Source: Methylophaga sp.
Lineage (GTDB): Bacteria; Pseudomonadota; Gammaproteobacteria; Nitrosococcales; Methylophagaceae
Assembly: GCA_011053005.1 (NCBI GenBank)
Contig: DRHW01000004.1
Location: 124,001-188,000, forward strand
Length of the DNA stretch: 64,000 nt
Direction: 5' to 3'
Shown piece by piece: positions 35,825 through 64,000 of the stretch; the stretch's first letter is position 1; every line of letters starts with the position of its first letter. A model generated the notes under the pieces. It did no database searches. It was given only the letters and a program-made list of their open reading frames with translations, and was not told the origin of the DNA. The position numbers and the translations under genes are program-made.

Positions 35825-37141
35825 ATGAGTTTAAGATCGCTAATTAATTTACGAATTGTATTTTCTGTAGTATTTATTTTACTGTTAGGCGGCGCGACGG
35901 CTGTATGGCAGGCGCGACAATCGGTAGAAAGAGAAGTGCAATCATCGATTAATCTTGCATTACAAATGATTGAATTTGGTTTTGCACAGGTACCGTTATC
36001 TAGTCGTTATGGTAGTGAGTGGTTGCCTCAGATCAGCGCTTTGCAGCAAACAAGACATTTACATATTTCGATTTCTGAAAATGGTGTTAAACCCACTAAG
36101 TTTATTACCCAACGTATTGTCGATGAAGCACGTAATGAGCCACCGCAATGGTTTATTGATTTAGTCAGAGCACGTCATTTTACTGAGAAATATGATGTCT
36201 CTATGGCTGATGGCACGGTCAAAACAATTTTAATTACAGCTGATCCGATGGATGAAATCACTGAGGCATGGGGAGAGTCGCAAGCTTTTTTCTGGTCAAT
36301 TGTCGCGATGTCAGTGATTATGTTTTTAGCGATCAACTTAGTGTTTAATGCTGTACTGCGTGCGGTGAAAACGATTCTATCGGGTTTACAACAAGTAGAA
36401 GATGGTCATTATGGATTGGCATTACCTCGCTTTAAAATTAAAGAGTTTGATGCGATAGCTCTTGAGGTGAATGAGATGTCATCTTCTTTAAAAGCAGCAC
36501 AGAAAAATAACCAAGCCTTAGCCCGTCATACAATGCATATTCAAGAATCTGAACGACAAACCATGTCACGTGAGCTGCATGATGAAATGGGGCAATCATT
36601 AACCGCGATTAAAGCGATGGCGGTGACCTCTAAGCAGGCCAGTGCCGATATACCGTCTATTGCAGATTCAATTATTACTGTTTGTAATCATCTTTCGATT
36701 GTGGTGCGTTCGATGATGCGGACACTTCATCCTTTGAGTTTGGCTGAATTAGGTTTACGCGCTACCTTATCGGATTTGATTAGTGAGTGGCAGCGTCGCA
36801 CGTCTGATTTAATGATTGATCTAGATTATGATGATCAGCTTGAACGGCTCAATAATGAGGTAACGATTCATGTTTATCGTATTGTTCAGGAGTGTTTAAC
36901 CAATGTTGTGCGTCATGCTAAGGCGACACACGTGTCTATTTTATTAGAGAAACGTGGCGATACGGTGTGGATGTCAGTATCGGATAATGGTGTAGGCGGA
37001 CAAATGGGGCAACAAGGATTTGGTGTGTTAGGTATGCGTGAACGTGCTCAGAATTTAGGCGGGAAATTTTTATTTGAATCAGTCGATAATGAAGGGGTTA
37101 ATGTTATCGTTCAACTGCCTTATATTGAGAAAAAACGATGA
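35825..37141 (+). CDS. moxY: MoxY-type sensor histidine kinase
   Basis: A 438-residue membrane sensor of the NarL/HisKA_3 class. The first membrane helix is at about 10-28, the periplasmic sensor about 29-150 has the LapD/MoxY N-terminal character, the second helix is at about 153-178, and a HAMP-like linker follows. The phospho-acceptor His252 lies in SRELHDEMGQ, and the HATPase domain has SDNGVGG and GFGVLGMRER. It overlaps moxX by four bases. In Paracoccus denitrificans MoxYX controls methanol oxidation genes, and the position upstream of mxaF supports the same role. The ligand is unknown. Confidence 0.85.
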   Translation: MSLRSLINLRIVFSVVFILLLGGATAVWQARQSVEREVQSSINLALQMIEFGFAQVPLSSRYGSEWLPQISALQQTRHLHISISENGVKPTKFITQRIVDEARNEPPQWFIDLVRARHFTEKYDVSMADGTVKTILITADPMDEITEAWGESQAFFWSIVAMSVIMFLAINLVFNAVLRAVKTILSGLQQVEDGHYGLALPRFKIKEFDAIALEVNEMSSSLKAAQKNNQALARHTMHIQESERQTMSRELHDEMGQSLTAIKAMAVTSKQASADIPSIADSIITVCNHLSIVVRSMMRTLHPLSLAELGLRATLSDLISEWQRRTSDLMIDLDYDDQLERLNNEVTIHVYRIVQECLTNVVRHAKATHVSILLEKRGDTVWMSVSDNGVGGQMGQQGFGVLGMRERAQNLGGKFLFESVDNEGVNVIVQLPYIEKKR

Positions 37142-37785: not shown

Positions 37786-38402
37786 TAGGAATAAAGATAG
37801 ACCTTGAATGGGTAAGATGGCTGAGTTATTTAGAATTGAAGCAAGTAAATATCTTGGGTATATAAAGTATAAAATCATGCTTAAACCAATTCTTTGAACT
37901 TAATTTATGATGATTCAGCCATAATAAAAAATGGTATATGCCAAAAATAATATGCTGACTCTCGTTAGTTGTAGCGGCTTCAAATATCCAAAATCAGAGA
38001 TACTTCCACTCATAACGTTTATCTAAAAAGTACAGAACAGTAATGTTTGTTAGTAATTCTTGGACGATATAAGCTGCTAATTTTAATGAACGGCAACGCC
38101 TCCAGTTACATTTCAATATCCAAATATGCATCTTCTCAAGAAAATAAAATCGCCTAATCACGGCATTTTTTAGATCTGTAAGTTCCCTCACAATAATCTT
38201 CAGTTTTATCAATTCCTTTGTTTTAGCGGGGGAGTGGCGTTTACCTCTTCTGTTTAATGATGACTTCCTTGCTCCATCTGTGGCTGCCGTCTCTATTTCA
38301 TAGTGTTGATCGAGGCGGATAATTCATCCGTCGACTCACCAACGTGACTGAGACATTGATATGTCAACGAGAGTTGACTTCAGACTATTTAGGAGTATGT
38401 AT
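37786..38402 (+). promoter_or_regulatory. mxaF upstream region and leader
   Basis: 617 bases before mxaF. A possible -10 is GATAAT (38318-38323) without a good -35, which would fit an activator-dependent promoter with a transcript start near 38330. A good Shine-Dalgarno AGGAG lies at 38391-38395. A minus-strand frame at 37994-38212 (72 residues, Lys/Arg/Ile-rich) is not recognisable and is not called a gene. Confidence 0.45.
38352..38378 (+). promoter_or_regulatory. Two mutually exclusive hairpins in the mxaF leader
   Basis: GACAT (38352-38356) can pair with ATGTC (38361-38365), while GTCAAC (38363-38368) can pair with GTTGAC (38373-38378) around a GAGA tetraloop of the GNRA type. The two share 38363-38365 and cannot form together. 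The second ends 12 bases before the mxaF Shine-Dalgarno. Confidence 0.5.
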
Positions 38403-40298
38403 ATGAATATAAGAACGAGAGGGAAGAGCTATCTGTCAGTAGCAACTTCAGCAGCCTTATTAGGTTCTGTTGTCGGCCTATTGGCTTCGGGTTCAGTGTT
38501 TGCTAATAAAAACTTAGTAGAATTACAAAAAAGTGAAGCAAACTGGGTCATGCAAGGTAAAAACTACTCAGCAAACCATTTCAGTACAGCAACACAAGTC
38601 AATAAAAGTAACGTAAAAGATTTAGAGCCAGCTTGGTCATTTTCTACTGGTGCTTTAAGTGGACATGAAGGCGCACCTTTGGTTGTGGGTGACATTATGT
38701 ATATTCATTCACCTTATCCAAATAATACATTTGCTGTGAGCTTAAAAGAGCCAGGTAAAATTCTTTGGGAACATAAACCAAAACAAGATCCTGCTGCGCG
38801 TGCGGTTGCATGTTGTGACGTTGTTAACCGTGGTCTAGCTTACTGGCCTGGTGATAGCAAAACGCCTGCGATGATCGTGAAAAGTCAATTAGACGGTAAT
38901 GTTGTAGCGTTAAACGCTAAAACAGGTGAAGTATATTGGAAGGTTGAAACAGCTGATATCAGTGTCGGTCAAACTCAAACAGCTGCACCTTTCGTCATGA
39001 ACGATTTAGTTGTACAAGGTTCTTCTGGTGCTGAATTGGGTGTTCGTGGTTATTTAACAGCATTTGATATGCACACCGGTGAAATGGTTTGGCGTTGGTA
39101 TGCAACAGGTCCAGATTCTGAAATTGGCCTTGATAAAGACTTCAATAGCGCTAACCCACACTACGGTCAAAAAGATCTAGGTACTAAAACATGGGAAGGT
39201 GATGCATGGAAAATCGGTGGTGGTACTAACTGGGGTTGGTATGCCTATGATCCTGATTTAAACATGTTCTACTACGGTTCTGGTAACCCTGCGCCGTGGA
39301 ATGAAACAATGCGTCCGGGTGATAACAAATGGACAATGACTATCTGGGGTCGTGATGCTGACACTGGTTTAGCGAAGTTCGGTTATCAAAAAACACCACA
39401 TGATGAGTGGGATTATGCCGGCGTTAACGTGATGATGTTATCTGAACAAAAAACAGCAGATGGCAAAATGCACAAGTTGCTAACGCATCCAGATCGTAAC
39501 GGTATTGTCTACACACTAGATCGTGAAAATGGTGACCTCATCTCTGCAAATAAAATGGATGAGACAGCTAACTGGGTGAAAAAAGTGGATCTAAAAACAG
39601 GTTTACCGATTCGTGATCCTGAATTTAGCACCAGCATGGGCAATCGTTCACACGATATCTGTCCATCAGCGATGGGCTTCCATAACCAAGGTATGGATTC
39701 ATACGATCCTAACAAAGAGTTATTCTTCTTAGGTATCAACCATCTATGTATGGATTGGGAACCGTATATGTTGCCATACCGTGCAGGTCAGTTCTTCGTT
39801 GGTGCCAACGTTTGGACATACCCTGGACCTAAAGGTGATCGCCAAAAAGGTATCGGTTCTGGTCAAGTTAAAGCTTATAACGCTATTACAGGTAAATTTG
39901 CTTGGGAGAAAATGGAAAAATTCGCAGTATGGGGTGGTACAACAGCAACAGCCGGCGATTTAGTTTTCTACGGAACATTAGATGGTTTCATCAAAGCACG
40001 TGATACAGACACAGGTAAATTACTGTGGAAATTCAGATTACCTTCAGGTGCTGTAGGTCATCCGATGACGTATACACATGACGGCGTTCAATATGTTGCC
40101 ATTTATTACGGTGTAGGCGGCTGGCCTGCGGTTGGTCTAGTGTTTGACTTGAACGATCCATCTGCTGGTTTAGGTGCTGTAGGTGCCTTTAAAGAACTTG
40201 CACATTACACTCAAATGGGTGGTGGTGTAATCGTTTTCTCTCTTGATGGTCAAAGCCCATTCACAAAAGACGTGAACTTGGGTGAGTACGAGAATTAA
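38403..40298 (+). CDS. mxaF: Methanol dehydrogenase large subunit, PQQ/calcium type
   Basis: Periplasmic PQQ enzyme oxidising methanol to formaldehyde. The start at 38403 has AGGAG seven bases upstream; ATGs at 38361 and 38397 do not fit. The 631-residue precursor has a signal peptide ending SVFA (residue 34). In mature numbering the known Methylobacterium MxaF residues fall exactly in place: the Cys103-Cys104 disulphide (VACCDVV), Glu177, Asn261 and catalytic Asp303. Residue 305 is Ala (DYA), not the Asp that binds lanthanides in XoxF, so this is the calcium form. Eight beta-propeller repeats with tryptophans are expected. Confidence 0.98.
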
Positions 40299-47604: not shown

Positions 47605-48255
47605 TTAATGATTAGGCGGTGTGATTAAACCAATTTTTTGAGCAAGAAAAATAATATCCACCAATTTTGTGGTATCTAATTTTCGCATCATATTTGTTTT
47701 GTAATTAGAAACGGTTTTAGGTGATAGCGATAAGCCCTTCGACATTTCTTCAATGCTCATTCCCTTTGCCAACATATTAAATATTGCAAACTCTTGGTGA
47801 GATAAAGCGCGTAATTTTTGATCTGTTTTTAAGTGCTTTTCCATTGCAATCGAATAAGCAATATCAGGTGCGAGATAGTGATTTTTATCCGCTACTGATT
47901 TCACCGCATCAATAAAAACATCAGATGAACATGACTTAGTAATGTAACCGATCGCACCGAGCTCCATTGCACGCATCGCTAAGGTTGTTTCATCGTGCAT
48001 ACTGCACACTAAAACACGGGCATTTTTACTGTGAAGACAAATACGGTGAATACACTCTAAGCCACTTTTTCCCGGCATGGTGAGATCAACAATACACACA
48101 TCTGGTTGAAGTTTAACAAACGCTTTATAGCCTTCATCAGCATTATCTGCTTGTCCGATGACATCAAAACCCGCCGATTCAAGTAGCCTTTGATAACCTT
48201 CTCTTAGAATAGTGTGATCATCTATTAATAATATTGAAGTACGAGGATTGCTCAT
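47605..48255 (-). CDS. NarL-family response regulator (MxaB-like)
   Basis: A 216-residue regulator with receiver phospho-acceptor Asp57 (VCIVDLTMPG), conserved Lys near 106 (YITKSCS) and a LuxR-type HTH (about 150-210, LSHQEFAIFNMLAKGMS). It resembles moxX in layout and in the HTH, suggesting an old duplication of the system. MxaB of Methylobacterium is also a NarL-type regulator in the mxa region, so this is a candidate for that role. It is partnered with the kinase just upstream and convergent with mxaL. Confidence 0.82.
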   Translation of the reverse strand: MSNPRTSILLIDDHTILREGYQRLLESAGFDVIGQADNADEGYKAFVKLQPDVCIVDLTMPGKSGLECIHRICLHSKNARVLVCSMHDETTLAMRAMELGAIGYITKSCSSDVFIDAVKSVADKNHYLAPDIAYSIAMEKHLKTDQKLRALSHQEFAIFNMLAKGMSIEEMSKGLSLSPKTVSNYKTNMMRKLDTTKLVDIIFLAQKIGLITPPNH

Positions 48256-51861: not shown

Positions 51862-52404
51862 TTGAGTAACGCAGCGGTATATCAAGATTTAAATGTCGGC
51901 ATAGTGAGTCCTCGTTCAGCCAGAAATGGTTTGGTCACTGAGCTTTATCAAGCACACAATGCCTGGTTACTTGGATGGTTACGTAAAAAAATAGGTTGCA
52001 GTTTAGATGCGGCCGATTTGATGCACGATACGTTTTCACGACTTTTACAAAAAGACGACCTTCCCGTCATTAATGAGCCTCGCGCCTATCTCACTACGAT
52101 TGCTCATGGCCTTATGGTCAACCATGTTCGTAGACGCGATATCGAACAGGCTTATCACAATGCAATAGCACATTTACCAGAAGCTGAGATGCTGTCAGCC
52201 GAAACAATCAACATCATGGTTGAAACACTCACTAATATTGATGCAATGCTTAGTGGCTTATCAAGCAAAGTACGCGATGCTTTTTTATGGTGTCAATTAG
52301 AAGGCTTAACCCATGCTGAAATTGCTGAAAGGTTAGATGTCTCAGTGAGTTCTGTGCGTCAATATATTGCTAAAGCCTTACTGCATTGCATCGAAGTTGT
52401 TTAA
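51862..52404 (+). CDS. FecI-type ECF sigma factor
   Basis: A 180-residue extracytoplasmic-function sigma factor. Region 2 lies at about 28-95 (WLRKKIGCSLDAADLMHDTF, LTTIAHGLMVNHVRRRD). Region 4 lies at about 120-175 (LSGLSSKVRDAFLWCQLEGL, HAEIAERLDVSVSSVRQYIA). The start is a TTG at 51862 supported by GGGGAAG five bases upstream. It precedes fecR by 32 bases, the standard cell-surface-signalling pair. It should direct transcription of the receptor and possibly the genes beyond. Confidence 0.92.
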   Translation: MSNAAVYQDLNVGIVSPRSARNGLVTELYQAHNAWLLGWLRKKIGCSLDAADLMHDTFSRLLQKDDLPVINEPRAYLTTIAHGLMVNHVRRRDIEQAYHNAIAHLPEAEMLSAETINIMVETLTNIDAMLSGLSSKVRDAFLWCQLEGLTHAEIAERLDVSVSSVRQYIAKALLHCIEVV

Positions 52405-52436
52405 ATCGTTATTAATCTAATTAAGCAAGTAGCCTT

Positions 52437-53399
52437 ATGATAAAACAAAGTTCCAATGCACTTCATGATGCTGCCGAGTGGTTTGTTCAGCTGACATCAG
52501 GTGATGCGACAGCACAAGATCGTGAAGCATGGCAAGCATGGGTTAATGCCGATGATGAACATAAACAAGCTTGGCAAAGAATCGAAGGCGTCACCAGCCA
52601 ATTCAAAGGATTAGATCCTAAAACAAGCATCGCTGTGCTTAATAGCTCGAATGCCAATTCATCAATATCGAATGAACGCCGACAAGCGATTAAAACCTTG
52701 GGCTTACTCTTAGCAGTGGGATCTGCAGGTTGGCTAACCTATAACACTTCGCCGTGGGATGCATTGATGGCAGATTATGCTACTGCCACGGGCGAGATTA
52801 AACATATCCAGCTTTCAGATGGAACGCGTCTAGTACTCAATACCAATAGCCAAATTTCAATTGATTTTGATGAGCAATACAGAAATGTCAGATTATTGAA
52901 AGGCGAGGTTTATATTGAAACCGCACACGAAGAGAACCGTGTTTATCGTCCTTTTAACGTGATAACCGATCATGGCATAGCAACCGCCTTGGGAACCCGA
53001 TTTAGCACACGTCTAGACGATGAACTCAGCTGCGTTAATGTTTATCAAGATACCGTAAAAGTACAAGCAATGACGGGTGAAACTACCTTTATTAATGCGG
53101 GTGAATCTGTCAAGTTCACGAGTAATACTATTCATCCGATCATGGCAGTTGACGATGCAGCCAATGCATGGACAAAAGGTTTTATCATTGCCGATAAAAT
53201 GCCATTGGCTCAGTTTGTTGAAGAACTCGCTCGATACAAGTCTGGCATAGTGCGTTGCGATCCTGCCATTGCCAGTTTAGAAATTTCAGGCTCCTATCCT
53301 TTGACAGATGTGGATGCGACTTTGCATAGCATTAGTACAATTTTCCCAATAAAAATTGATCATTTTACCCGTTATTGGATCATGCTCAAACCCGCATAG
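52437..53399 (+). CDS. FecR-type anti-sigma regulator
   Basis: A 320-residue inner-membrane regulator. The cytoplasmic N-terminus (DAAEWFVQLTSGDATAQDRE, DUF4880 type) holds the sigma factor. One membrane helix lies at about 84-103, and the periplasmic FecR domain (about 112-215: IKHIQLSDGTRLVLNTNSQI, GEVYIET) receives the signal from the TonB receptor's N-terminal domain. The C-terminal STN-like part (about 260-320) contacts the transducer. It matches the downstream STN receptor. Confidence 0.93.
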   Translation: MIKQSSNALHDAAEWFVQLTSGDATAQDREAWQAWVNADDEHKQAWQRIEGVTSQFKGLDPKTSIAVLNSSNANSSISNERRQAIKTLGLLLAVGSAGWLTYNTSPWDALMADYATATGEIKHIQLSDGTRLVLNTNSQISIDFDEQYRNVRLLKGEVYIETAHEENRVYRPFNVITDHGIATALGTRFSTRLDDELSCVNVYQDTVKVQAMTGETTFINAGESVKFTSNTIHPIMAVDDAANAWTKGFIIADKMPLAQFVEELARYKSGIVRCDPAIASLEISGSYPLTDVDATLHSISTIFPIKIDHFTRYWIMLKPA

Positions 53400-53540
53400 A
53401 ATATAGCTATTAAACGGATAGCTATCATCGCCTCATAAAATAATTTAAAAAAAGTTCAAAAAAAATTGTCACTTTTCGGTTTTCGATTGGCATAACTAAT
53501 AAAGAACAAAAAAAGTTATTAATCGAAGAGAGAGAGAGAA

Positions 53541-56500
53541 GTGAATAAAGAACGGCACCTAAATAAAGTATTATCTCGTTGGTTGTATTCCGTGGCGATG
53601 ATTATGGTTTCAACTATGTCATTGAGTAATATAGCGATTGCAGATGATGACACCACTGATAACGCATCAAATAAAAAATACGCTATTCCAGCAGGCCCAT
53701 TAGGTAAAGCTATCTCAAGCTATGCTGCAGATAATGGTATGCGTTTAACGTTTGAGCCTTCATTAGCAGAAGGCAAAACAACACAAGGCCTGCAAGGTGA
53801 ATATACCGTCAACGAAGGTTTTTCTAAGCTATTAGATAACAGCGGTTTAGAAGTGATTGATGATCAAGATGGAGGTTACTTCCTAGTGCCATCGATGGAA
53901 GAATTTCCAGCACTGGGTGAAGATGTCATCAAACTAGACCAAGTCAATGTCCGTGCCCAACGCTTTTATGAACTCGGTCCATTACCCGGTTTAGGTCTGA
54001 CTAAAGAAGAAATCCCCGGCAACGTACAAAGCATCAGCGCCCAAGAAATTAAAGATTCTCATTCTTTAAGCATGACCGATTTATTCAATCAAAAACTACA
54101 AGGTGTCACCGTCAACGACTACCAAGGCAATCCCTTTCAAATGGATGTGCAATATCGTGGCTTTAGTGCAGGCCCACAAATTGGCACACCACAAGGTTTA
54201 AGCGTGTTTTTTGATGGTATTCGTGTTAACGAACCGTTTGGTGATGTGGTGAACTGGGACATGATCCCCATGAATGCCATTTCTAGTGTGGATGTCTTTC
54301 CAGGTTCAAATCCTATCTTTGGTTTAAATACCTTAGGTGGTGCCTTCACCATGAAAACCAAAGATGGTTTTAACAACGATAAAGCCGATGTACAAGTCCT
54401 AGCTGGTTCATTTGGTCGTAAACAATTACTGATGGAAAACGGCTGGAACAATGGCAAAATCGCCTTTTTTGGTGCAGCAAGTTTATTTGATGAAGAAGGC
54501 TGGCGTGATGACTCACCGAGTAAAGTGAATCAATTCTTTGGAAAAAGCAGCTACCGAGGTGACAAACTTGATGTTAATTTAAGCACCTTATTAGTTAAAA
54601 CCGATTTAACAGGTAATGGCCTCATTCCTAGCGAACAATACGATAGAGATTCATCAAGCGTCTTTACATCACCCGATACCACCACCAACAAACTACAACA
54701 ATTTCAACTTTCTAGTGCGTTTCAAGTCAATGACAAATTTAGTGTCACAGGTCAAGTTTATCGACGTAATAGTGACCGACGTCAAATTGGTTCTGATGTT
54801 GTGACGGATTATGATGATGAGCTACTTGCCAAACGTTTACCGGCTGATGGTGAACAATATACTTGTTTATTTAATAGTACTGGTATAGCGAATGACTATG
54901 GCGTACCTAACTACTTTGTTATTCCAGTTGATAACTATGACCCTAGTTCTACAAGTATTTTTAACTCACAGTTTCTTCAGGATTTAGTCACTAGTTCCCC
55001 AACACAATTGGCGACAGATTATGGTTCAAATATCAATACTGAATTACCTGGTGATTTTCTAAAAGCATTTCAATATAGATATGTAGAAAACCGCAATTTT
55101 AAAGAAGAAAATACATACAATAGGAACAACACACCTATAAGTAAAGATGGTCCTCAAAATCCAGATTTTCCCGGCGAACTTGAATACTCAGCTGATTTTT
55201 CATACTCATTAGTAGGGGGAGGAACAAGTAATGGCTTTGGTGCAGTTTTTGAGAGTGATACTTATTTTTTTACTCGATCTACTGATGGAAGTGGTAACCC
55301 GGTAATCACCAAAAATTACGTTATTCTTTTACCTCCCTCGAATGAAGATACATGCCAGCAAACAAAAGCAACTGTTAATAACTATGAAATATACGATGAT
55401 GTTGGCAATCCGGTTGCGATAGATGGGGCCTATGGATATGGTGAAGATGGCCCAGGTTCGGGCTCAGGATATGTAAAAGGCACACCCACAGCCATTATTA
55501 CTGATAACCGAATCACACAAAGTACTGATGGTGCATCTGTTCAGTTCAACTGGAATTTAGATGAACACAAATTTATGGTGGGTATGTCAATTGATGCGGC
55601 TAGTGCTGATTATACCAATAGTCAACGACTTGGCTTTTTTGATGCTAATCGAAAGGCCTATTTAGACCCAGACCAAGCTCACCCTCAATTTTTGGCAGCC
55701 TTTGATCCCTTAGAAAACAGTAATTTTAGTGGCACCAATACCACGAAGAGTATTTATTTCAGTGAAACATGGAACCCCATTGATGCATGGAATTTTAACT
55801 TCTCGGGACGTTATAACGACACCACCACAAAAAGCAAAATTGCAACGCGTTATGGACCCAAAGGTGCCAACTATTCGGTGACTGATTTAATTGGCGAGCC
55901 AGATCAATACAATATCTGTCCTAATGGTGACTGTACAGGTGTGGCCACCAATTTTAAACGCTATCGTTTAGACGATACGCTTGAAGAGGCTGAATCAGAA
56001 TCGTTTAATTATTATTCATTTAATCCGTCGTTAGGTGCGACTTGGCAGGCCAAAGATAATTTGAATGTTTATGCCAATTGGTCACAAGGTACGCGGGTTC
56101 CCAGCGTCATTGAGCTAGGTTGTGCCTTAGACCATACACCAACAGGTAGATATTACGAAGATGGTCAGGGTGGATTCTATGAAATTCCCAAAAGTGTGTT
56201 AGAAAAAAGAGGCTGTTATTTACCTAATACGCTATCAGGTGATCCGTATTTACCTCAAATAAAAGCGACGTCATATGATATCGGTTTACGAGGCAGCCTG
56301 AGTGATAATTTGCAATGGAACTTAGGTGCTTACCAAACAGATCTTAAAGACGACATTTATTTTGTTGCGGTCGGTGGTGGATCAGGATTCTTCGACAGTA
56401 TTGGTAACACACGTCGCCGAGGTATCGAAGCAGGTTTATCGGGCCAACATGAAAAATGGGGCTTTAGTGTCAACTACGCACTGACCGAAGCAACATTTCA

Positions 56501-57062
56501 AGATAAATTCTTGATGATTAGTGCTGATAATGGAACGGCAATCTATGTGCCCAGCATTGGAAATTCAATTATTGAGGTTGATAAAGGCGACACGATGCCA
56601 GGTGTTTCGCGTCATAACCTGAATGCAACAGTTAGCTATTTAGTCACACCAAAATGGCAAGTAGGCGTGACGGCTATTGCTCACTCATCAAGTTATGTTC
56701 GAGGTAACGAAAATAATGAACATAAAGTCGGTCAAGTTCAAACACGAGAATTAGGTGGTGTCGAAGTTTCTCGTCAGCCTATGACTAACCCTGGGACGAT
56801 ACCTGCTTACGCCACTTTTAATTTTCAAACGAGTTATAAAGCGACCAAAACGCTCACCGTTTCACTGTTAGTAAACAATGTATTCGATAAAGAATATTTC
56901 AGTGCAGGTGGTCTGGGACGTGATCCTTTCTCACCCAGCATTAACGGTGCAATTGGTCCAGATGGCTATAACCACAACTCTAATGATTGGCAAAGTACCA
57001 ACTTTATTGCACCGGGTGCACCGCGTGGTGCATGGGTAGGGCTAAATTGGGTTTTTGATTAA
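53541..57062 (+). CDS. TonB-dependent outer-membrane transducer with STN domain
   Basis: A 1173-residue receptor. A signal peptide is followed by a signalling STN domain (about 46-115: YAIPAGPLGKAISSYAADNG), then a TonB box/plug (about 140-270: EEIPGNVQSISAQEIKDS) and a large beta barrel ending in aromatic VFD. The start is GTG at 53541 after a GAGAGA tract. It is far longer than ordinary FecA-type receptors (about 770-800). The extra length is partly a hydrophilic loop (about 440-660) with Cys442 and Cys605. The ligand is not identifiable; the STN domain says it signals to FecR. Confidence 0.92.
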   Translation: MNKERHLNKVLSRWLYSVAMIMVSTMSLSNIAIADDDTTDNASNKKYAIPAGPLGKAISSYAADNGMRLTFEPSLAEGKTTQGLQGEYTVNEGFSKLLDNSGLEVIDDQDGGYFLVPSMEEFPALGEDVIKLDQVNVRAQRFYELGPLPGLGLTKEEIPGNVQSISAQEIKDSHSLSMTDLFNQKLQGVTVNDYQGNPFQMDVQYRGFSAGPQIGTPQGLSVFFDGIRVNEPFGDVVNWDMIPMNAISSVDVFPGSNPIFGLNTLGGAFTMKTKDGFNNDKADVQVLAGSFGRKQLLMENGWNNGKIAFFGAASLFDEEGWRDDSPSKVNQFFGKSSYRGDKLDVNLSTLLVKTDLTGNGLIPSEQYDRDSSSVFTSPDTTTNKLQQFQLSSAFQVNDKFSVTGQVYRRNSDRRQIGSDVVTDYDDELLAKRLPADGEQYTCLFNSTGIANDYGVPNYFVIPVDNYDPSSTSIFNSQFLQDLVTSSPTQLATDYGSNINTELPGDFLKAFQYRYVENRNFKEENTYNRNNTPISKDGPQNPDFPGELEYSADFSYSLVGGGTSNGFGAVFESDTYFFTRSTDGSGNPVITKNYVILLPPSNEDTCQQTKATVNNYEIYDDVGNPVAIDGAYGYGEDGPGSGSGYVKGTPTAIITDNRITQSTDGASVQFNWNLDEHKFMVGMSIDAASADYTNSQRLGFFDANRKAYLDPDQAHPQFLAAFDPLENSNFSGTNTTKSIYFSETWNPIDAWNFNFSGRYNDTTTKSKIATRYGPKGANYSVTDLIGEPDQYNICPNGDCTGVATNFKRYRLDDTLEEAESESFNYYSFNPSLGATWQAKDNLNVYANWSQGTRVPSVIELGCALDHTPTGRYYEDGQGGFYEIPKSVLEKRGCYLPNTLSGDPYLPQIKATSYDIGLRGSLSDNLQWNLGAYQTDLKDDIYFVAVGGGSGFFDSIGNTRRRGIEAGLSGQHEKWGFSVNYALTEATFQDKFLMISADNGTAIYVPSIGNSIIEVDKGDTMPGVSRHNLNATVSYLVTPKWQVGVTAIAHSSSYVRGNENNEHKVGQVQTRELGGVEVSRQPMTNPGTIPAYATFNFQTSYKATKTLTVSLLVNNVFDKEYFSAGGLGRDPFSPSINGAIGPDGYNHNSNDWQSTNFIAPGAPRGAWVGLNWVFD

Positions 57063-57122
57063 GAACTTTTGTAATAAGCAGTTATAAATGCCTATTTTAT
57101 TGTAATTCACATGGAGAAGCAG

Positions 57123-58118
57123 ATGAGATACAACACATTAAAACTAACAATGCTCTTAGCCTTAGGTTTGTCTGGAACACAAGCACATGCTTTAGGCTTG
57201 GTTGCATTACCTGATACTGGGTTTTCAAGTTCAGCTTATACCAGTTGTTATAACAATGGTCGGGTTGTACCACCGACAAATGCTGATGATGTTAAAGGGA
57301 ACTTTGGTTCATATCCGATTGCTGGTGCAAACCAACCCTCAACTTCCAAAAATAACACTTGTTTTGTAGCAAAACCATTTTTTGAAAATTTCTCACCCGT
57401 ATCGGGATATACATTAGTTGGAAATAGAAGTACGGTTATTCCAGCTACAACTGGCGGTGGCGGGAATATCGGAACTCTCGTTGATTATGTATGGCGAAAT
57501 TCTGCACAAACGATGTGTATTTTTGGTACACGAGTAACGATGAATAATGCAGATCATACGAATGGTGGCTCGATATATAAATATTTCGAGGTGAATGATA
57601 TAGCACGTGGAGGTTTTTCCAACTCTGGAACAGTTAATGTGGGATATACCATTTTCAGAACAACAGGTAATACGTCACCACTTTATCGAATCGGTCGTAC
57701 ATTTACTTCTGTTCAACATCGTGCGTATAAATATGACACTCTTTTGAATAAGCAAGTAAATGGTCTTAACTATCTAGATTTACCCACGAAAAATAATGTG
57801 TCATCAGCTATTACAGGTGAAAATTTACCATTAGCAGATCATACTGTTGCTAGTACAACATTGGCTAGTCAAGATGCTGTCGCGAATAGTAATTGGGTGA
57901 ACTTCACAACAAAAGTAACATTTGCAGATTCCGATACAGGTTCTACATTTGCAATATCCCCTTTTACTTATATACAAGCACCTTGTGACTCAAGTTCACC
58001 TAATACATGGATAAAAACCGGAGCAATTCGTCTGCGTCAAACAATTCAGGAGGTCGGGTCATCGTTAAAAGAAATTACTGTCGATGGTTATGCTCCACCG
58101 GATGCGACACTGCCTTGA
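57123..58118 (+). CDS. Secreted protein of unknown function, tandem copy 1
   Basis: A 331-residue precursor with a signal peptide (MRYNTLKLTMLLALGLSG, cleavage after AHA at 23). The start at 57123 has GGAG six bases upstream. The mature protein has four cysteines (42, 80, 132 and one near the C-terminus), a glycine-rich turn (TTGGGGNIG, about 109-117), and is rich in Thr, Ser, Asn and aromatic residues like an extracellular beta protein. It is nearly identical to copy 2 over its first 137 residues (seven differences), then diverges. I do not recognise the family. It follows the TonB transducer by 60 bases. Confidence 0.87.
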   Translation: MRYNTLKLTMLLALGLSGTQAHALGLVALPDTGFSSSAYTSCYNNGRVVPPTNADDVKGNFGSYPIAGANQPSTSKNNTCFVAKPFFENFSPVSGYTLVGNRSTVIPATTGGGGNIGTLVDYVWRNSAQTMCIFGTRVTMNNADHTNGGSIYKYFEVNDIARGGFSNSGTVNVGYTIFRTTGNTSPLYRIGRTFTSVQHRAYKYDTLLNKQVNGLNYLDLPTKNNVSSAITGENLPLADHTVASTTLASQDAVANSNWVNFTTKVTFADSDTGSTFAISPFTYIQAPCDSSSPNTWIKTGAIRLRQTIQEVGSSLKEITVDGYAPPDATLP

Positions 58119-58288
58119 TAAAAATGAAGGTCAAAAAGTTTTTTCAGGATTATAGGTAGACATTTGTGACTACCAAACAGGTTTCATTTTCAAGCATTGA
58201 AATCAACAAATTACAGACGCTTGGAATGAAATGGGTGATACAGGCAGCCACAAATGCCTGTTTTATTGTAACTCGTATGGAGAAGCAA

Positions 58289-59278
58289 ATGAAACATAAC
58301 ACATTAAAACTAACAATGCTCTTAGCCTTAGGTTTGTCTGGAACACAAGCACATGCTTTAGGCTTGGTTGCATTACCTGATACTGGTTTTGCAAGTTCAG
58401 CTTATACCAGTTGTTATAACGATGGTCGGGTTGTACCACCGGCAAATGCTGATGATGTTAAAGGGAACTTTGGTTCATATCCGATTGCTGGTGCAAACCA
58501 ACCCTCGACTTCCAAAAACAACACTTGTTTCATAGCAAAACCATTTTTTGAAAATTTCTCGCCAGTATCAGGATATACATTAGTTGGGAATAGAAGTACG
58601 GTTATTCCAGCTACAACTGGCGGTGGCGGAAATATCGGAACTCTCGTTGATTATGTATGGCGAAATTCTGCACAAACGATGTGTATTTTTGGTACACGAG
58701 CAACGATGATTAGTGCGGATCATGATAGCAGTAAATCTGGCACGCAATATTTTGAAATTAATGATATTGCTCGTGGTGGCTTTGCTAACTCTGGAACTGT
58801 CAATGTGGGATATACCATTTTCAGCACAGCTGGTAATACGTCGCCCGTCTATCGGGTGGGTCGTACCTTCACCTCTGTCCAACATCGTTCGAAAAGTTAT
58901 GACACATTTTTGAATAAGCAAGTAAATGGGACCAACTATCTTGATTTGCCTACCAAGAATAGCGTCACGGCTGCTATCACAGGTGAAAATTCACCTATTG
59001 ATGCCACTGATCCAGCTAGTACAACCTTAGCAACGCAAGATGCAGTGGTGAATAGCAATTGGGTCGATTTTACTGCTGATACTGTTTTTTACGATGACGA
59101 TGGATCGACAAATGCGCTATCTGGGTTTACTTATATTCAAGCTGCTTGTGACGGTACTGATACTGATGATTGGGTCCTATCAGATGCTATTCGTCTTCGT
59201 CAAACAGCTCAGGAAGAAACTACCTTTAAGGAAATTGCAATTCCTGGATTTGCACCGCCGGGTGCAAGCATCCCTTAA
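58289..59278 (+). CDS. Secreted protein of unknown function, tandem copy 2
   Basis: A 329-residue paralogue of the preceding gene with the same signal peptide, cysteines and glycine turn. The start at 58289 has GGAG as in copy 1; the longer in-frame ATG at 58166 gives an N-terminus that would hide the signal peptide. The duplicated unit includes the leader sequence (57085-57122 matches 58251-58288). Divergence is concentrated after residue 137. Folded, disulphide-bearing exoproteins of this kind are typical type II secretion cargo, and gspGFE lie downstream, but the link is inferred. Confidence 0.87.
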   Translation: MKHNTLKLTMLLALGLSGTQAHALGLVALPDTGFASSAYTSCYNDGRVVPPANADDVKGNFGSYPIAGANQPSTSKNNTCFIAKPFFENFSPVSGYTLVGNRSTVIPATTGGGGNIGTLVDYVWRNSAQTMCIFGTRATMISADHDSSKSGTQYFEINDIARGGFANSGTVNVGYTIFSTAGNTSPVYRVGRTFTSVQHRSKSYDTFLNKQVNGTNYLDLPTKNSVTAAITGENSPIDATDPASTTLATQDAVVNSNWVDFTADTVFYDDDGSTNALSGFTYIQAACDGTDTDDWVLSDAIRLRQTAQEETTFKEIAIPGFAPPGASIP

Positions 59279-59302
59279 ATAATAATTTTTGATGGTAATT
59301 AA

Positions 59303-59339
59303 CCGCAAGACTGGTATTTATTCAGTCTTGCGGAATTTT
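59303..59339 (+). terminator. Terminator-like hairpin before the RTX gene
   Basis: CCGCAAGACTG (59303-59313) pairs perfectly with CAGTCTTGCGG (59323-59333), loop of nine, then AATTTT. It lies 30 bases before the RTX gene start, so it may cap the duplicated-gene transcript and reduce read-through. Confidence 0.75.
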
Positions 59340-59362
59340 AAAAAATTTGATGGAGAGAAATC

Positions 59363-61642
59363 ATGGCGACAAAAATTTTTAATTCAACAGAAGTAACTTA
59401 TACGGGCACAAATAACGCTGATTTTGTGGTCGGAAATGGTCTTGATAATTATATTGAAGGTGCTGGTGGTAATGATCTGATTTATGCAGGGGATGGTAAT
59501 GATGTTGTTCTCGGCGGTACAGGCAACGACATCATTTTAGGCGGTGCCGGCGATGATGTTTTAGTGGGTGAATCTGGTGATGATCTAATTTTAGGGGGCT
59601 CAGGTGATGACGCCATTGCCGGTGGTGATGGGGATGATATTATTCATGGTGGATCCGGAAATGATACTATTTTTGGTGACAATGGCGACGACATCATTAG
59701 TGGTGGGAAGGGGAGTGACTATATAGAAGGTGGAGACAGTACCGCTGGAAATGAAGCTATTAATGGTAATGTTTATTTAGCAACATCGGATGATTTATTA
59801 CTGGGTGGTGGGGGAAATGATACCTTTGTATTAGCTGATGCTGAGGATTATCTTACTGAAGATGAAGATGAAGATGAAGATGAAGATGAAGAAGTCGAAG
59901 AAGTCGAAGACGACGATGACGACGATGACGATGACGATGACGATCTAGCACCATCAGTAAGTATGTTAGGTGCGACATCTTCTCTAGATAACAATGGAAA
60001 TGTGGCTAGATATACCGATGTTCAAGAGGCTGAAGAAGACAATGATGATGCAGGATTCGTTGTTTTTGATAATGTGTTAGGTGAATTTGTTGCATTAGAC
60101 AGTATCGAAATTGCAGAACAAACAGAGACAGATGTTCGTTTAAATATCGTTACACGTCCCGGTTCTTCAGAAATCAACACAGCTGCAAGTACTATTGCTG
60201 GTTATAACGCTGTTGATACACTTGAATTTACTGAAAGTGGTGATTTTTCTGAGTCAATAGGTTTCAGTGGCATTGAACGTATTGAGTTGAATGATGGTGT
60301 CAATATCACGTTGTCTTCTGAACAATTTGAAGCAAATGGCGAGTCTTTAAGCTTAGGTGAACTAAATCCGGGTACTCATATTTATGGTACTGCGGGTGGT
60401 GAGTCTGAATCAGTCACTATTGCTTTTGAATATGAAGAAGCTGAGTTCGAACCAGAAGATGACATCGTTGGTGCCGTTGAAGTTGAATATGACTATGCAG
60501 GATTTTCTGCTGATGAATATTCAATTGCTAACTTATTCCATGATGTAAATATTATCTACGATGCCAGCGAAGGAGAAGAAGGCAGCTTTACACGTGTAGA
60601 TGGTGGTAATGAAACTGCTGGTGCAACTGAAACTGTTTACGGTAGTGAAGGTGTTGACTACGGCACGATGCATTCAGGTGACGATACTTACTACGGTAAC
60701 GATGGCAACGATGTTTTAGTTGGCCAAAGTGGTGCTGATAGTTTGTATGGTGAAGATGGCGATGACATCTTTGAAATCGGTGGTTTTGGTACAGGTGTTT
60801 CAGGTACAACTTCTGCTGCTGATGATGGTAATCAAGAATGGATTGCGACCGGTGCGAAACATGATCTAATCGTGGGTGGTGATGGTGTTGATACCTTGCG
60901 TGTTACGACAGGTGTTGGTGCTAATACTCAAGCAAGCGGTACGGTGGTACTGAATGATGCTAACTTCCAAAGCATGGAAGTTGTTCAAGTCGGTGGAACC
61001 GTTGATCAGTTGAATGTAGAAAATGATGCGTTGCAAATGTTGAACGATCATTACTATTTCCAAGCGAATGGTAATGTGAGTGATCTTAGCAACAGCTTAG
61101 GCAATAACGGCGGCACGATTAATAATGTGGTTATTGATGCATCTGGCGTAACAGCGAATGGTCTGCGTTTTGAAGGTAATGCTGATGACAATACGTTCAT
61201 CGGAACAACGCAAGACGATGTCTTTGTTGGTAACAGCGGTGATGATGTTATGACCGGTGGTGCTGGTGCTGATACGTTTGTATTTGGTCAAGTGCAAGAG
61301 CAAGTTGTCACAGGTGATGATGATGAAGTTCAAAGCTATGTCGATACAGCATTTGATTTGACGGGTGTTGATACGATTACTGACTTCCTAAGTGGTACGG
61401 ATACCATTGCTTTAAATGTTGATATGTTCAGTTCATTGACTGTTGGTGGCTTCTCTGCTGCTAACTTGGTGAGTGGTGCTGGTGCTGTGGCAGGTGATGC
61501 AGATGACTATTTGTTGTTTGATTCACTGACCAATACATTAAGCTATGATGCTGACGGAAATGGTGCTGGTGATGCCGTGCAAATTGCGGTCTTGACGGGT
61601 GTTACTTCATTTAGCGCTTCTGATGTTGAAGTGTTTGCATAA
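59363..61642 (+). CDS. RTX calcium-binding protein with poly-acidic tract
   Basis: A 759-residue protein without a Sec signal (start MATKIFNSTEVTYTG), preceded by a strong GGAGAG ribosome site. RTX nonapeptide blocks lie at about 28-125 (GGAGDDVLVGESGDD, GGSGNDTIFGDNGDD), near 435-465, and near 605-640 (GNSGDDVMTGGAGADTF). A run of Glu/Asp lies at about 166-194. The C-terminus (ITDFLSGTDTIALN, LSYDADGNGAGDAVQ) resembles type I secretion tails. It could be an S-layer-like or cell-surface calcium protein; that is inference. No type I exporter is in the window. Confidence 0.85.
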   Translation: MATKIFNSTEVTYTGTNNADFVVGNGLDNYIEGAGGNDLIYAGDGNDVVLGGTGNDIILGGAGDDVLVGESGDDLILGGSGDDAIAGGDGDDIIHGGSGNDTIFGDNGDDIISGGKGSDYIEGGDSTAGNEAINGNVYLATSDDLLLGGGGNDTFVLADAEDYLTEDEDEDEDEDEEVEEVEDDDDDDDDDDDDLAPSVSMLGATSSLDNNGNVARYTDVQEAEEDNDDAGFVVFDNVLGEFVALDSIEIAEQTETDVRLNIVTRPGSSEINTAASTIAGYNAVDTLEFTESGDFSESIGFSGIERIELNDGVNITLSSEQFEANGESLSLGELNPGTHIYGTAGGESESVTIAFEYEEAEFEPEDDIVGAVEVEYDYAGFSADEYSIANLFHDVNIIYDASEGEEGSFTRVDGGNETAGATETVYGSEGVDYGTMHSGDDTYYGNDGNDVLVGQSGADSLYGEDGDDIFEIGGFGTGVSGTTSAADDGNQEWIATGAKHDLIVGGDGVDTLRVTTGVGANTQASGTVVLNDANFQSMEVVQVGGTVDQLNVENDALQMLNDHYYFQANGNVSDLSNSLGNNGGTINNVVIDASGVTANGLRFEGNADDNTFIGTTQDDVFVGNSGDDVMTGGAGADTFVFGQVQEQVVTGDDDEVQSYVDTAFDLTGVDTITDFLSGTDTIALNVDMFSSLTVGGFSAANLVSGAGAVAGDADDYLLFDSLTNTLSYDADGNGAGDAVQIAVLTGVTSFSASDVEVFA

Positions 61643-61651
61643 GTAAAGATT

Positions 61652-61687
61652 AAGAGGATGTGCCGGTTGGTGCATCCTCTTTTTTTA
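61652..61687 (+). terminator. Strong terminator after the RTX gene
   Basis: A 13-bp stem (61652-61664 with 61669-61681, two wobbles) with a GGTT loop followed by six T. It ends the RTX transcript 30 bases before gspG, which must be read through or use its own start. Confidence 0.92.
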
Positions 61688-61717
61688 TTCTTCATGTTCA
61701 ACATTAAGGTAGTCATC

Positions 61718-62188
61718 ATGTCAGTGTTCAAAGCGTTTATTAATCCAGTTCAATTAACAAATACAGCTAGATCAGCACAGCGAGGTTTTACCTTGCTCGA
61801 GTTGCTGGTGGTTATGGTCATTATCGGTCTATTGGCTGGTTATGTTGGCCCCAAATATTTTGCTCAAATCGGTAAGTCAGAAGTCAAAACGGCTCGCGCT
61901 CAAATCAACGCATTAGGTAAAGCATTAGATACCTATCGTTTGGATGTTGGGCATTACCCAAGCACAGAAAATGGTTTAGCGGCATTAACGACGCAACCTA
62001 ATAATGAACCCAAATGGCAAGGTCCATATCTACAAAAAGATGCACCAAAAGATCCTTGGGACAATCCTTATCATTATCAAATGCCCGGTACACATGGCCA
62101 AAGTGGCGATTATGATTTGTGGTCATTAGGCAATGATAATGCGAGTGGTGGTAAAGACATTGCTGCCGATATTGTGAGCTGGCAATAG
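61718..62188 (+). CDS. gspG: Type II secretion major pseudopilin GspG
   Basis: A 156-residue pseudopilin of the type II secretion system. The prepilin peptidase site is RG|FTLLELLVVMVIIGLL, with the mature Phe +1 and the conserved Glu +5. It is followed by the GspG C-terminal domain with calcium-site features (LDVGHYPSTENGL, KDPWDNPYHY, GDYDLWSLG). The start at 61718 gives a 23-residue leader, long but within range; the in-frame ATG at 61658 lies inside the terminator. It is followed by gspF. Confidence 0.93.
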   Translation: MSVFKAFINPVQLTNTARSAQRGFTLLELLVVMVIIGLLAGYVGPKYFAQIGKSEVKTARAQINALGKALDTYRLDVGHYPSTENGLAALTTQPNNEPKWQGPYLQKDAPKDPWDNPYHYQMPGTHGQSGDYDLWSLGNDNASGGKDIAADIVSWQ

Positions 62189-62200
62189 GTACTTTAAAGA

Positions 62201-63391
62201 GTGAAATTTAGCTTGAAAATAGTACAAGGCGACACTGTTAATGTGATGGAAGTCGAGGCTGGCAATTCTTTGCAAGCGCGTTCTATTGCAGAAGAACAAG
62301 GTCATCATGTGTTATCAATCAGCCAGCAAAAGGCAGTTAATCTTAAGATTGCTAGTCTCAAAACAACTAAATTTAATGTCATGTTATTCAGCCAAGAGTT
62401 GTTGGCGTTGATTGAATCTGGCTTAAGCTTAGTTGAGGCAATAGAAGCATTAGCTGAGAAGGAAACGCATGCTGAATCGAAAGCTGTTTTAAACAAAATC
62501 AAAGCGTCGCTTTTTGATGGGCAAACACTTTCAACCTCATTAGAAAATGTGCCAGATGTCTTTACAGCACTTTATATTGCTTTGATTCGAGCGAGTGAAC
62601 GCACGGGTGATATGGAAACGGCTTTACGTCGACATGTCGCTTATCAATCGCAAGTTGATGCGATGAAAAAGAAGATTATCTCTGCCGCTATTTATCCGGT
62701 GTTATTACTGGTGGTGGGCGGCTTAGTGGTGCTGTTTTTATTAGGTTATGTTGTACCTAAATTTAGTGTGATTTATGAAAGCACTAATGCTGAGTTGCCG
62801 TTGATGTCTCAGCTTTTATTGAGTTGGGGACGTTTATTACATACTCATGGTCGCGAAGCATTTGCTGTATTTATTGTGGGTATTTGTTTGATGAGTTATG
62901 TATTAAGTCGACCTTTTGTTCGCAGCATGATCATGGCAAAAGTGTGGCAAATTCCTAAAGTGGGTGAGAGTCTGCGTATTTATCAACTAGCACGGTTTTA
63001 TCGGACTTTAAGTATGTTATTGCAAGGCGGTATTCCACTGACCAGTGCAATGCGGATGGTGTCGTCATTATTACAGCCTTTATTACGTAGCAAATTAGCC
63101 AACGTAGTGAATGACGTGCAAGAAGGCAAACCGTTATCGACTGCGATGGAAATACATGGGCTGACAACTTCTATTTCTGTTCGTATGTTACGAGTGGGAG
63201 AACGTACCGGACAAATGGGCGAAATGATGGAACGCATCGGTATTTTTTATGATGATGAAATTGCCCGTGTTGTTGAGTGGTTTACCAAATTACTAGAACC
63301 GATATTGATGATTGCAATCGGCTTAGTGGTGGGCTTGGTTGTTGTATTAATGTACATGCCAATTTTTGAGTTGGCGGGGAGTATTCAATGA
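62201..63391 (+). CDS. gspF: Type II secretion inner-membrane platform protein GspF
   Basis: A 396-residue platform protein with two repeated cytoplasmic T2SF domains (about 65-185 and 268-388: LIRASERTGDMETALRRH, MLRVGERTGQMGEMMERI) and three membrane segments (about 165-190, 220-240, 365-388). It starts at GTG 62201, 12 bases after gspG. The N-terminal segment of about 60 residues is shorter than some GspF proteins. It overlaps gspE by four bases. Confidence 0.93.
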   Translation: MKFSLKIVQGDTVNVMEVEAGNSLQARSIAEEQGHHVLSISQQKAVNLKIASLKTTKFNVMLFSQELLALIESGLSLVEAIEALAEKETHAESKAVLNKIKASLFDGQTLSTSLENVPDVFTALYIALIRASERTGDMETALRRHVAYQSQVDAMKKKIISAAIYPVLLLVVGGLVVLFLLGYVVPKFSVIYESTNAELPLMSQLLLSWGRLLHTHGREAFAVFIVGICLMSYVLSRPFVRSMIMAKVWQIPKVGESLRIYQLARFYRTLSMLLQGGIPLTSAMRMVSSLLQPLLRSKLANVVNDVQEGKPLSTAMEIHGLTTSISVRMLRVGERTGQMGEMMERIGIFYDDEIARVVEWFTKLLEPILMIAIGLVVGLVVVLMYMPIFELAGSIQ

Positions 63392-64000
63392 ATATGGCCT
63401 TATTATCGACATCAAACAAAGAAGATGTAGTGCTAACGGTAGCACAATTACAACAAGCCAAAAAACTGGCTGAACAAACCAAAAAACCATTACTCAATGT
63501 ATTAGAAGATATTAGCCATTTAAGCCCTGAGATCTTTGCTCAAGCTTTGGGCCGATTCATGCAATATCCCGTGTTGAATATTTCACAACTTTATGAACTA
63601 CAACCTGAATTTACGGTATTACCCTTTGCCCAAGCAGAAAAATTAGGCTGTATTATTGCTCGTGATGCACGACACGTTTTACATGTTGTTCATGCCAATC
63701 CATTCGATCTGAATTTACAAAATAAACTAGATCTCTTGATGACTGAAGAAGCCGTTTGGGTGTTGGCACATACAGATGATTTAAATGTTTATTTAGCTCA
63801 TCATGAAGCGAGCATGCGAGCATTGGGCGACGTCTCATCTAGTCAAGGCGATCATGCCAATAATGAACAAGGGCTAGAAGATATTTCATTACGTTCAATT
63901 AGTGAAGATACCAGCCCAATCGTTAAGTTTGTTCGCTCTACTTTATATGATGCATTGAAAGCTGGCGCGAGTGATGTGCATTTAGAAACGGATCATAATG
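63388..64000 (+). CDS. gspE: Type II secretion ATPase GspE, cut by the window edge
   Basis: The first 204 codons of the motor ATPase. The ATG at 63388 overlaps the gspF stop as ATGA. The N-terminal domain (about 15-130, MshEN/GspE_N-like: LNVLEDISHLSPEIFAQALG) is followed by the start of the T2SSE domain (VKFVRSTLYDALKAGASDVH). Walker motifs would lie beyond the edge. The G-F-E order indicates a compact type II system continuing to the right. Confidence 0.9.
   Translation, partial: MNMALLSTSNKEDVVLTVAQLQQAKKLAEQTKKPLLNVLEDISHLSPEIFAQALGRFMQYPVLNISQLYELQPEFTVLPFAQAEKLGCIIARDARHVLHVVHANPFDLNLQNKLDLLMTEEAVWVLAHTDDLNVYLAHHEASMRALGDVSSSQGDHANNEQGLEDISLRSISEDTSPIVKFVRSTLYDALKAGASDVHLETDHN

Follow-up and report, generated by a model that had tools for sequence, protein, structure and literature searches.

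We analysed a stretch of 64,000 nucleotides (hereafter the window) on contig DRHW01000004.1 of a Methylophaga sp. assembly (GCA_011053005.1), the 2.9 Mb genome of a methylotroph with an mxa operon. The last part of the window bears a gene island that encodes, in this order, a FecI-type extracytoplasmic function (ECF) sigma factor (SigA), a FecR anti-sigma factor, a large TonB-dependent receptor/transducer (TBDT), two tandem putative exoproteins termed here Exo1 and Exo2, an RTX protein and the components GspG, GspF and GspE of a type II-like secretion system (Table 1). A preliminary description made from the sequence of the window alone had placed these genes on one strand with short gaps and the exoproteins in no known family; both statements were confirmed. 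Protein families were called with the Pfam and NCBIfam libraries at curated cut-offs, and neither Exo1 nor Exo2 had a match at E ≤ 0.01, which is what "no family" means throughout; in particular, no HasA-family, enzyme or toxin family was found.

Table 1. Features of the island and of the neighbouring mxa region, in coordinates of the window
Feature	Position	Strand	Remarks
ECF sigma factor, FecI type (SigA)	51862..52404	+	Sigma70_r2 and r4_2 above Pfam cut-off
FecR anti-sigma factor	52437..53399	+	PF04773 (FecR) and PF16220 (DUF4880)
TonB-dependent receptor/transducer (TBDT), 1173 aa	53541..57062	+	STN-like N-terminal region, plug, long barrel
Exo1, unnamed family	57123..58118	+	Sec-type signal (by eye), 4 Cys; no Pfam/NCBIfam family
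Structured intercistronic RNA element, conserved	58155..58273	+	P2 long stem, P3 hairpin; no Rfam match
Exo2	58289..59278	+	78% identity to Exo1; no Pfam/NCBIfam family
RTX calcium-binding-repeat protein	59363..61642	+	PF00353, 122 bits
Terminator-like hairpin, RTX/gspG junction	61652..61681	+	sites of this type at chance level regionally
GspG major pseudopilin	61658..62188	+	start likely further in, ~61718
GspF-type inner membrane protein (T2SSF)	62201..63391	+	Pfam/NCBIfam
GspE-type ATPase, N-terminal part	63388..64000, runs out of window	+	GspE-type N-terminus
MoxY/MxaY-type histidine kinase, LapD_MoxY_N	35825..37141	+	with its regulator spans 35825-37785, upstream of mxaF
MxaF calcium-type methanol dehydrogenase	38361..40298	+	DEWDYA motif
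LuxR-type response regulator in mxa region	47605..48255	-	putatively MxaB, by position

SigA exceeded the NCBIfam cut-off for the sigma70-ECF superfamily, its nearest equivalogs being FecI types that scored just or well below their own cut-offs, and the FecR protein reached 73.2 bits for PF04773 against a cut-off of 24. The plug and barrel of the TBDT lay above the Pfam cut-offs (barrel 134.4 bits vs. 27), the STN domain was under its own (26.1 vs. 28.4 bits), and the FecA model covered residues 22–121. The family alignment pointed to 57123 and 58289 as the better start sites of the exoproteins. The RTX protein contains no cysteine, and no signal peptide was seen in it. GspG clearly passed the TIGR01710 equivalog cut-off (169.1 vs. 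88.85 bits). In GspE, GspF and GspD the family domains were found, yet all three proteins stayed under the equivalog cut-offs, the PilB and PilQ models scoring about as high on the island proteins as the GspE and GspD models, respectively; the island GspE also carries an MshEN domain. The row from fecI to gspE may comprise more than one transcript, because the terminator-like hairpin lies between the RTX gene and gspG and the RNA element interrupts the row as well; across the region, 8 such terminator-like sites were found vs. 8.8 expected.

Beyond the window the contig (locus L003) carries more of the island: the remainder of gspE, one gene placed like PilM/GspL, genes resembling PilN and PilO, a small one at the GspC position without a Pfam match, a secretin with TPR repeats, and three short genes at the pseudopilin position, two of which bear the N-methylation motif. 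The genes of a type I exporter, PrtD-HlyD-TolC, come next (747, 370 and 312 bits, all exceeding the curated cut-offs), so that its three subunits share one island with the RTX protein. Genes for ExbB, ExbD or TonB were not found alongside the Exo genes of the window as far as the contig end. A second FecI-FecR-TBDT cassette, named by similarity, follows the type I genes (L003:12559-15690) and is broken off by the end of the contig.

A BLASTP comparison with the window proteins and their relatives covered 70 loci, namely 9 from Methylophagaceae, 40 from Methylophilaceae and 21 from a group of 251 genomes which we take to be the order Methylococcales (numbers prefixed L denote loci, and those prefixed G, genomes). 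The stretches mostly span 20 kb, so a missing gsp or type I gene may reflect truncation. A TBDT gene was found within 5 kb of Exo in 66 of the 70 loci (9/9 Methylophagaceae, 38/40 Methylophilaceae, 19/21 Methylococcales). On these counts, and with Exo itself matched in only one of 370 genomes of a class-wide sample, the window's own, the linkage is not due to chance. Of the four misses, L161 and L115 lie near a contig end, in L160 Exo is fused to Ig-like repeats, and L128 is unexplained. The TBDT-Exo-RTX order is repeated in eight further Methylophagaceae loci as far as the contigs reach, and TBDT-Exo-RTX-gsp recurs in Methylophagaceae and Methylophilaceae; the co-occurrence in other genomes, which the preliminary description had named beforehand as the point to look for, was thus found. 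In Methylococcales the receptor is mostly opposite in direction to Exo, and in L170 it stands 4.9 kb away with RTX-like genes in between.

The remaining genes follow Exo less strictly. RTX genes were present near Exo in 9/9 Methylophagaceae, 27/40 Methylophilaceae and 1/21 Methylococcales loci, gsp genes in 7/9, 29/40 and 0/21, and type I genes in 6/9, 23/40 and 1/21. In Methylophilaceae, type I genes occurred in 23 of the 27 RTX-positive vs. none of the 13 RTX-negative loci (Fisher p = 2e-7, uncorrected for relatedness), while 12 of the 13 RTX-negative loci possess gsp genes. The type I genes track RTX while the gsp genes persist without it, and the island therefore consists of two superposed modules, RTX with type I genes and Exo with the type II-like set. 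The preliminary description had the exoproteins leave by type II secretion. For RTX this is not supported: given the PrtD-HlyD-TolC genes downstream, the occurrence of type I genes in Methylophilaceae only together with RTX and the Sec-type signal of Exo (by eye), RTX most likely leaves by type I, and the type II-like system most likely serves the Exo proteins only. One or more of ExbB, ExbD and TonB are encoded in 5/9 Methylophagaceae and 8/40 Methylophilaceae loci, all three in seven of those eight, and FecI in 5/9 and 18/40, respectively.

Further genes accompany Exo in some groups. A pentapeptide-repeat protein with a conserved N-terminal region is encoded beside Exo in 15 of the 21 Methylococcales loci (e.g., L051:4750-5934, with Pfam run on this copy, and L052:8996-9904). 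In some Methylophilaceae a large TPR protein, which might at a guess be a glycosyltransferase, stands between Exo and gspG (L167:1674-3980, L173, L176, L188). An autotransporter gene lies between the receptor and Exo in L197 (11043-14711, with Pfam run on this copy) and in L198.

Exo was matched in 8/57 Methylophagaceae, 40/187 Methylophilaceae (G393 only weakly) and 20/251 Methylococcales genomes. A scan of one genome per species with two peptide patterns, which may miss relatives, yielded 24 Exo loci, 22 of which carry methylotroph names at genus or family level (Methylophaga, Methylophilus, Methylobacillus, Methylovorus, Methylotenera, Methylovulum, Methylophilaceae, Methylococcaceae). The other two are L034, labelled "Gammaproteobacteria" and belonging to the window's genus (G001), and L051, labelled only as a proteobacterium and unplaced. 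Exo was thus found only in methylotroph lineages, this single unplaced locus apart. No match to Exo1 was obtained among the PLSDB plasmids. In the titles and abstract openings retrieved by searches of open-access literature, with subscription papers and supplements outside the scope, neither the island nor Exo is described.

The N-termini of Exo1 and Exo2 resemble Sec signals by eye. Three cysteines, C60, C112 and C268, are invariant in an alignment of 41 family members, C22 is present in 40 of them, and nine positions are acidic in at least 70% of the members. Among PDB chains no relative was detected by sequence (best E 0.36 and 0.13 with two family alignments). AlphaFold2 gave a confident, mostly beta model of Exo1 (pLDDT 86.5, pTM 0.90). 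Fold assignment was dropped: the best Foldseek hit had E 0.065, and the best VIA-align hit, the mu2 adaptin domain (rmsd 4.0, 130 aligned), had Z 6.4, which is within the range common for unrelated folds, residues 1–76 being barely covered in the comparison. The family has several unusual members. In L160 (8837-12283) an Exo-like domain opens a 1149-aa frame and is followed, by eye, by many Ig-like repeats and a YD-repeat-like end, with no receptor nearby. A second kind of locus in Methylophilaceae (L162, L163, L164, L165) has a receptor followed by weak Exo-like proteins of 24–30% identity. In G036, an extra Exo copy (L014:2532-3380) has an internal stop in the match and no visible start codon; it is apparently a decaying duplicate.

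A second conserved component is the structured RNA element of about 120 nt found between TBDT and Exo. In the window it precedes Exo2, and a degenerate remnant precedes Exo1. The element was seen first in 12 Methylophagaceae leaders and later in Methylophilaceae, and it usually ends some 13–20 nt upstream of the Exo start codon. Its model rests on 56 copies (the window and 55 others), 9 of 65 motif matches having been excluded first as antisense or chance. P2 and P3 covary in these sequences: 93.3% of the cells pair, and 79 double-change cells were counted vs. 20.4 after shuffling and 14–25 after sliding. The folding z is −3.98 for the window copy and −2.9 on average for the 56 copies, with 40 of them below −2; an additional hairpin, P1, was not clearly over shuffles (30/56 vs. 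42%). A search of Rfam with the window stretch and with 12 loci returned nothing relevant. The covariance model found the element in the same 8 of 57 Methylophagaceae genomes as Exo and in 39 of 187 Methylophilaceae genomes, all of them among the 40 Exo carriers; in the 251 Methylococcales genomes it had no match under strict filters and with no known positive as control.

In L043, L046, L047 and L190 a copy of the element stands before RTX as well. Copies were also seen behind receptors with no Exo after them (L250, L251, L253, L025, L183). L252 has two that are not next to a receptor, L021 has one past the final pseudopilin gene, and weak, reversed matches lie between two receptors in L023 and L024. 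The copies without Exo are perhaps scars of Exo loss. Because of such copies, a riboswitch is only one option among several; the sequence of the element comes close to a palindrome, and P3 has a terminator-like score as well, which makes an mRNA stabiliser, an attenuator or a recombination scar possible too.

The genomic context suggests a link of Exo to methanol oxidation. In the window the island begins about 1.5 kb past an mxaD-like gene, with a beta-propeller gene in between. Among the 70 loci, 16 have a MoxY-like kinase or mxa genes no further than 15 kb from Exo, the mxa genes being found in 8 of the 21 Methylococcales loci and in the window. In Methylovulum, for instance, the order is mxaG-mxaJ-mxaF, a regulator, mxaD, TBDT, the pentapeptide-type gene, Exo, a regulator and a MoxY-type kinase. 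The enzyme beside Exo in Methylovulum and in a Methylococcaceae genome, considered as a possible XoxF, proved to be MxaF (DEWDYA). A MoxY-like kinase with its regulator lies within 15 kb of Exo in 7 of the 40 Methylophilaceae loci, and five of these seven have neither FecI nor FecR in the stretch. With neither of them scored in any of the 21 Methylococcales loci, sigma control, which the preliminary description had built into the system, is not a constant part of it. MxaY is the kinase that controls the lanthanide switch in Methylomicrobium buryatense (PMC5018670). In each of the seven Methylophilaceae genomes, the Exo-adjacent kinase of Methylovulum finds its top match in the kinase near Exo; the window kinase is 48% identical to that of Methylovulum, and LapD_MoxY_N is present in all three MoxY-like kinases tested (Methylovulum, M. 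oryzisoli, window).

The motifs DEWD[YF]D and DQWDYD mark lanthanide-type methanol dehydrogenases and fit other lanthanide-type alcohol dehydrogenases too. When 12 Exo genomes were searched with MxaF (E ≤ 1e-100; 30 of 31 matches could be typed), 9 had a lanthanide-type Asp motif, and in G065, G067 and G070 it was the only type at the cut-off. The last of these genomes, Methylotenera oryzisoli La3113 (L041), is called lanthanide-dependent in the title of the paper describing the species. A link between the Exo island and the type II island mmol_1380-1409 of M. mobilis was not used: in G426, which may be M. mobilis JLW8, the Exo island is located at 1.17 Mb, and another secretin/ATPase cluster, at 1.53 Mb, is nearer to the expected place of mmol_1380-1409 (1.44–1.56 and 1.16–1.20 Mb were read). 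The mmol_1380-1409 genes are methanol-induced, up to 1000-fold vs. methylamine (PMC3728764).

From gene order, protein families, distribution, the linkage of RTX with type I genes and genomic context, all directly observed, we propose that the locus is an acquisition island of methylotrophs, in which a receptor acts with a dedicated secreted protein in a layout like that of the HAS haemophore systems, and whose most likely ligand would be a lanthanide; to this reading as a whole we assign a probability of roughly 0.4. Dedicated uptake taken separately is favoured at about two in three, and a lanthanide as the ligand at about two in five. The lanthanide is suggested by the restriction of the family to methylotrophs, one unplaced locus apart, and by its recurrent location in the vicinity of mxa genes or of regulators resembling those of the lanthanide switch.

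FecI/FecR/STN signalling, type I export of RTX proteins and TonB-driven import are established functions of these families. Exo, having a Sec-type signal, would exit through the type II-like system encoded alongside, and RTX through the type I exporter. Outside the cell Exo, perhaps together with RTX, would capture the ligand and hand it to the adjacent receptor, and ExbB-ExbD-TonB would power the import. The loaded receptor may then signal via FecR/FecI, thereby adjusting expression; in other species a MoxY-like kinase pair might take the place of this signalling. The ligand would be the rare-earth metal used by the XoxF methanol dehydrogenase. Exo as an extracellular carrier is a candidate, nothing more.

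Several observations weigh against this proposal. Mxa genes lie within 15 kb of Exo in none of the other 8 Methylophagaceae and none of the 40 Methylophilaceae loci, and are absent from 13 of the 21 Methylococcales loci; moreover, the neighbours found are mxa genes, i.e., those of the calcium enzyme, and xoxF was not seen beside Exo, although no systematic search was made for it. The kinase evidence is blurred as well: in five of the seven Methylophilaceae genomes the runner-up kinase is only 4–16 bits behind, in G054, G038 and G069 the top kinase match lies away from Exo, and the Exo-adjacent kinase of G256 ranks second. Among the dehydrogenases, G001 and G069 have the MxaF type only, and G066 has nothing at the cut-off. 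The Methylococcales loci are without gsp genes, and their sole RTX match (36%) and sole type I match (26%) are both weak, the latter probably being another ABC transporter. Two of the nine conserved acidic positions of the family are non-acidic in Exo1. Being matched in only the fractions of genomes given above, Exo is accessory. Finally, FecI/FecR systems are classically iron-linked.

A more specific form of the proposal makes Exo a protein lanthanophore, that is, a secreted and probably disulfide-bonded protein which would bind rare-earth ions, alone or with RTX, and pass them to its own receptor, under the control of a new structured RNA class and of regulators like those of the lanthanide switch. 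This is a tentative idea that we hold doubtful. Methylotenera is said to excrete a lanthanide-scavenging molecule (PMC11978286, citing a 2017 paper); if the idea is true, Exo would be a candidate for that scavenger.

Among the rival explanations, the best surviving one, which we still regard as unlikely, retains the plan of a secreted protein and a receptor and changes the ligand to iron, haem, calcium, copper or another nutrient. The iron association of FecI-FecR-STN receptors is in its favour, FecI being present in the loci counted above, and RTX repeats bind calcium. In a surface-layer (S-layer) study of M. album, RTX and TolC are assigned to a group for calcium uptake and a TonB receptor to one for siderophore uptake (PMC13274458). 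However, a different nutrient alone would not account for the near confinement of Exo to methylotroph lineages or for its placement near mxa genes and MoxY-like kinases. Also against this rival, Exo has no similar PDB chain in sequence, and the copper proteins CorA and MopE should be among these chains if deposited.

We find it rather improbable that the island works as surface signalling of the PUMA3 kind, in which the receptor would control exoprotein secretion without importing anything and Exo and RTX would act outside the cell as an enzyme, a toxin or matrix. This is essentially the model of the preliminary description, and it has a precedent in VreI, which up-regulates the adjacent hxc type II genes and exbBD (PMC2729926). 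Against it, the window receptor has a plug and a barrel above the cut-offs, whereas VreA lacks the barrel, the TBDT-Exo pairing holds in Methylococcales with neither FecI/FecR nor gsp nearby, and Exo belongs to no enzyme or toxin family of Pfam or NCBIfam. Least probable is a surface-structure island, with a type II-like filament, an adhesive coat or S-layer formed by RTX and Exo, and the receptor as a mere neighbour: the MshEN domain of GspE and its equal score with PilB, the PilN/PilO-like genes, the Exo fused to Ig-like repeats in L160 (by eye) and the S-layer gene of M. album BG8, reported to adjoin genes for a PrtD-type exporter (PMC13274458), would fit it, but no neighbour of Exo is as constant as the TBDT, which is there even where gsp and RTX are missing.

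The acquisition island would bear on the capture of lanthanides, which are scarce and dissolve poorly, by methylotrophs outside Methylobacterium, for which the excerpted literature names the receptors LanA and LutH and no extracellular carrier in the island-bearing families. It combines a receptor with a family of putative secreted partners and with export machinery of both kinds in beta- and gammaproteobacterial methylotrophs, and its genes can be deleted in harmless species that are in culture, such as Methylobacillus flagellatus, Methylophaga aminisulfidivorans and Methylotenera oryzisoli. If the ligand is another nutrient, it would still be a HAS-like uptake system with a secreted family unmatched in Pfam and NCBIfam and a candidate new RNA element.

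The preliminary description knew of no described system with this composition, a statement that needs to be narrowed, as HAS shares parts of the island and PUMA3 combines surface signalling with type II secretion. In the HAS systems, HasI-HasS-HasR-HasA-HasDE-HasB represent a sigma factor, an anti-sigma factor, a receptor, a secreted partner, a type I exporter and TonB. The island likewise has a sigma factor, an anti-sigma factor, a receptor with an STN-like region, an adjacent putative secreted protein and a type I exporter, with TonB-type energisers in related loci and not on the contig of the window as far as it reaches. It differs in that Exo is familyless and has a Sec-type signal instead of the type I signal of the haemophore, the type I genes track RTX and not Exo, and an RTX protein, a type II-like system and methylotroph hosts are added. 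By analogy, the HAS layout would be the closest working model for the island as a whole and PUMA3 for the combination of a sigma factor with type II secretion.

In PUMA3 of Pseudomonas aeruginosa, the genes of VreA-VreI-VreR have those of the Hxc type II system as neighbours, along with exbBD and a homologue of tonB (PMC2729926), so that, as in the island and its relatives, surface signalling, type II secretion, secreted proteins and exbBD/tonB are encoded side by side. Besides the barrel, the two differ in that PUMA3 has two-partner secretion where the island has RTX and type I genes, and the Exo family is not mentioned for PUMA3 in the excerpt used (PMC2729926). LanA and LutH, compared here by description only, are also TonB-dependent receptors of methylotrophs linked to the lanthanide switch, but the excerpted text describes no secreted protein partner for them (PMC12482762). 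Methylolanthanin and other small-molecule lanthanophores share extracellular lanthanide scavenging and receptor uptake with the proposed function of the island; they are, however, small molecules made by biosynthetic enzymes (PMC11317620, PMC11996626), whereas the island would employ a secreted protein.

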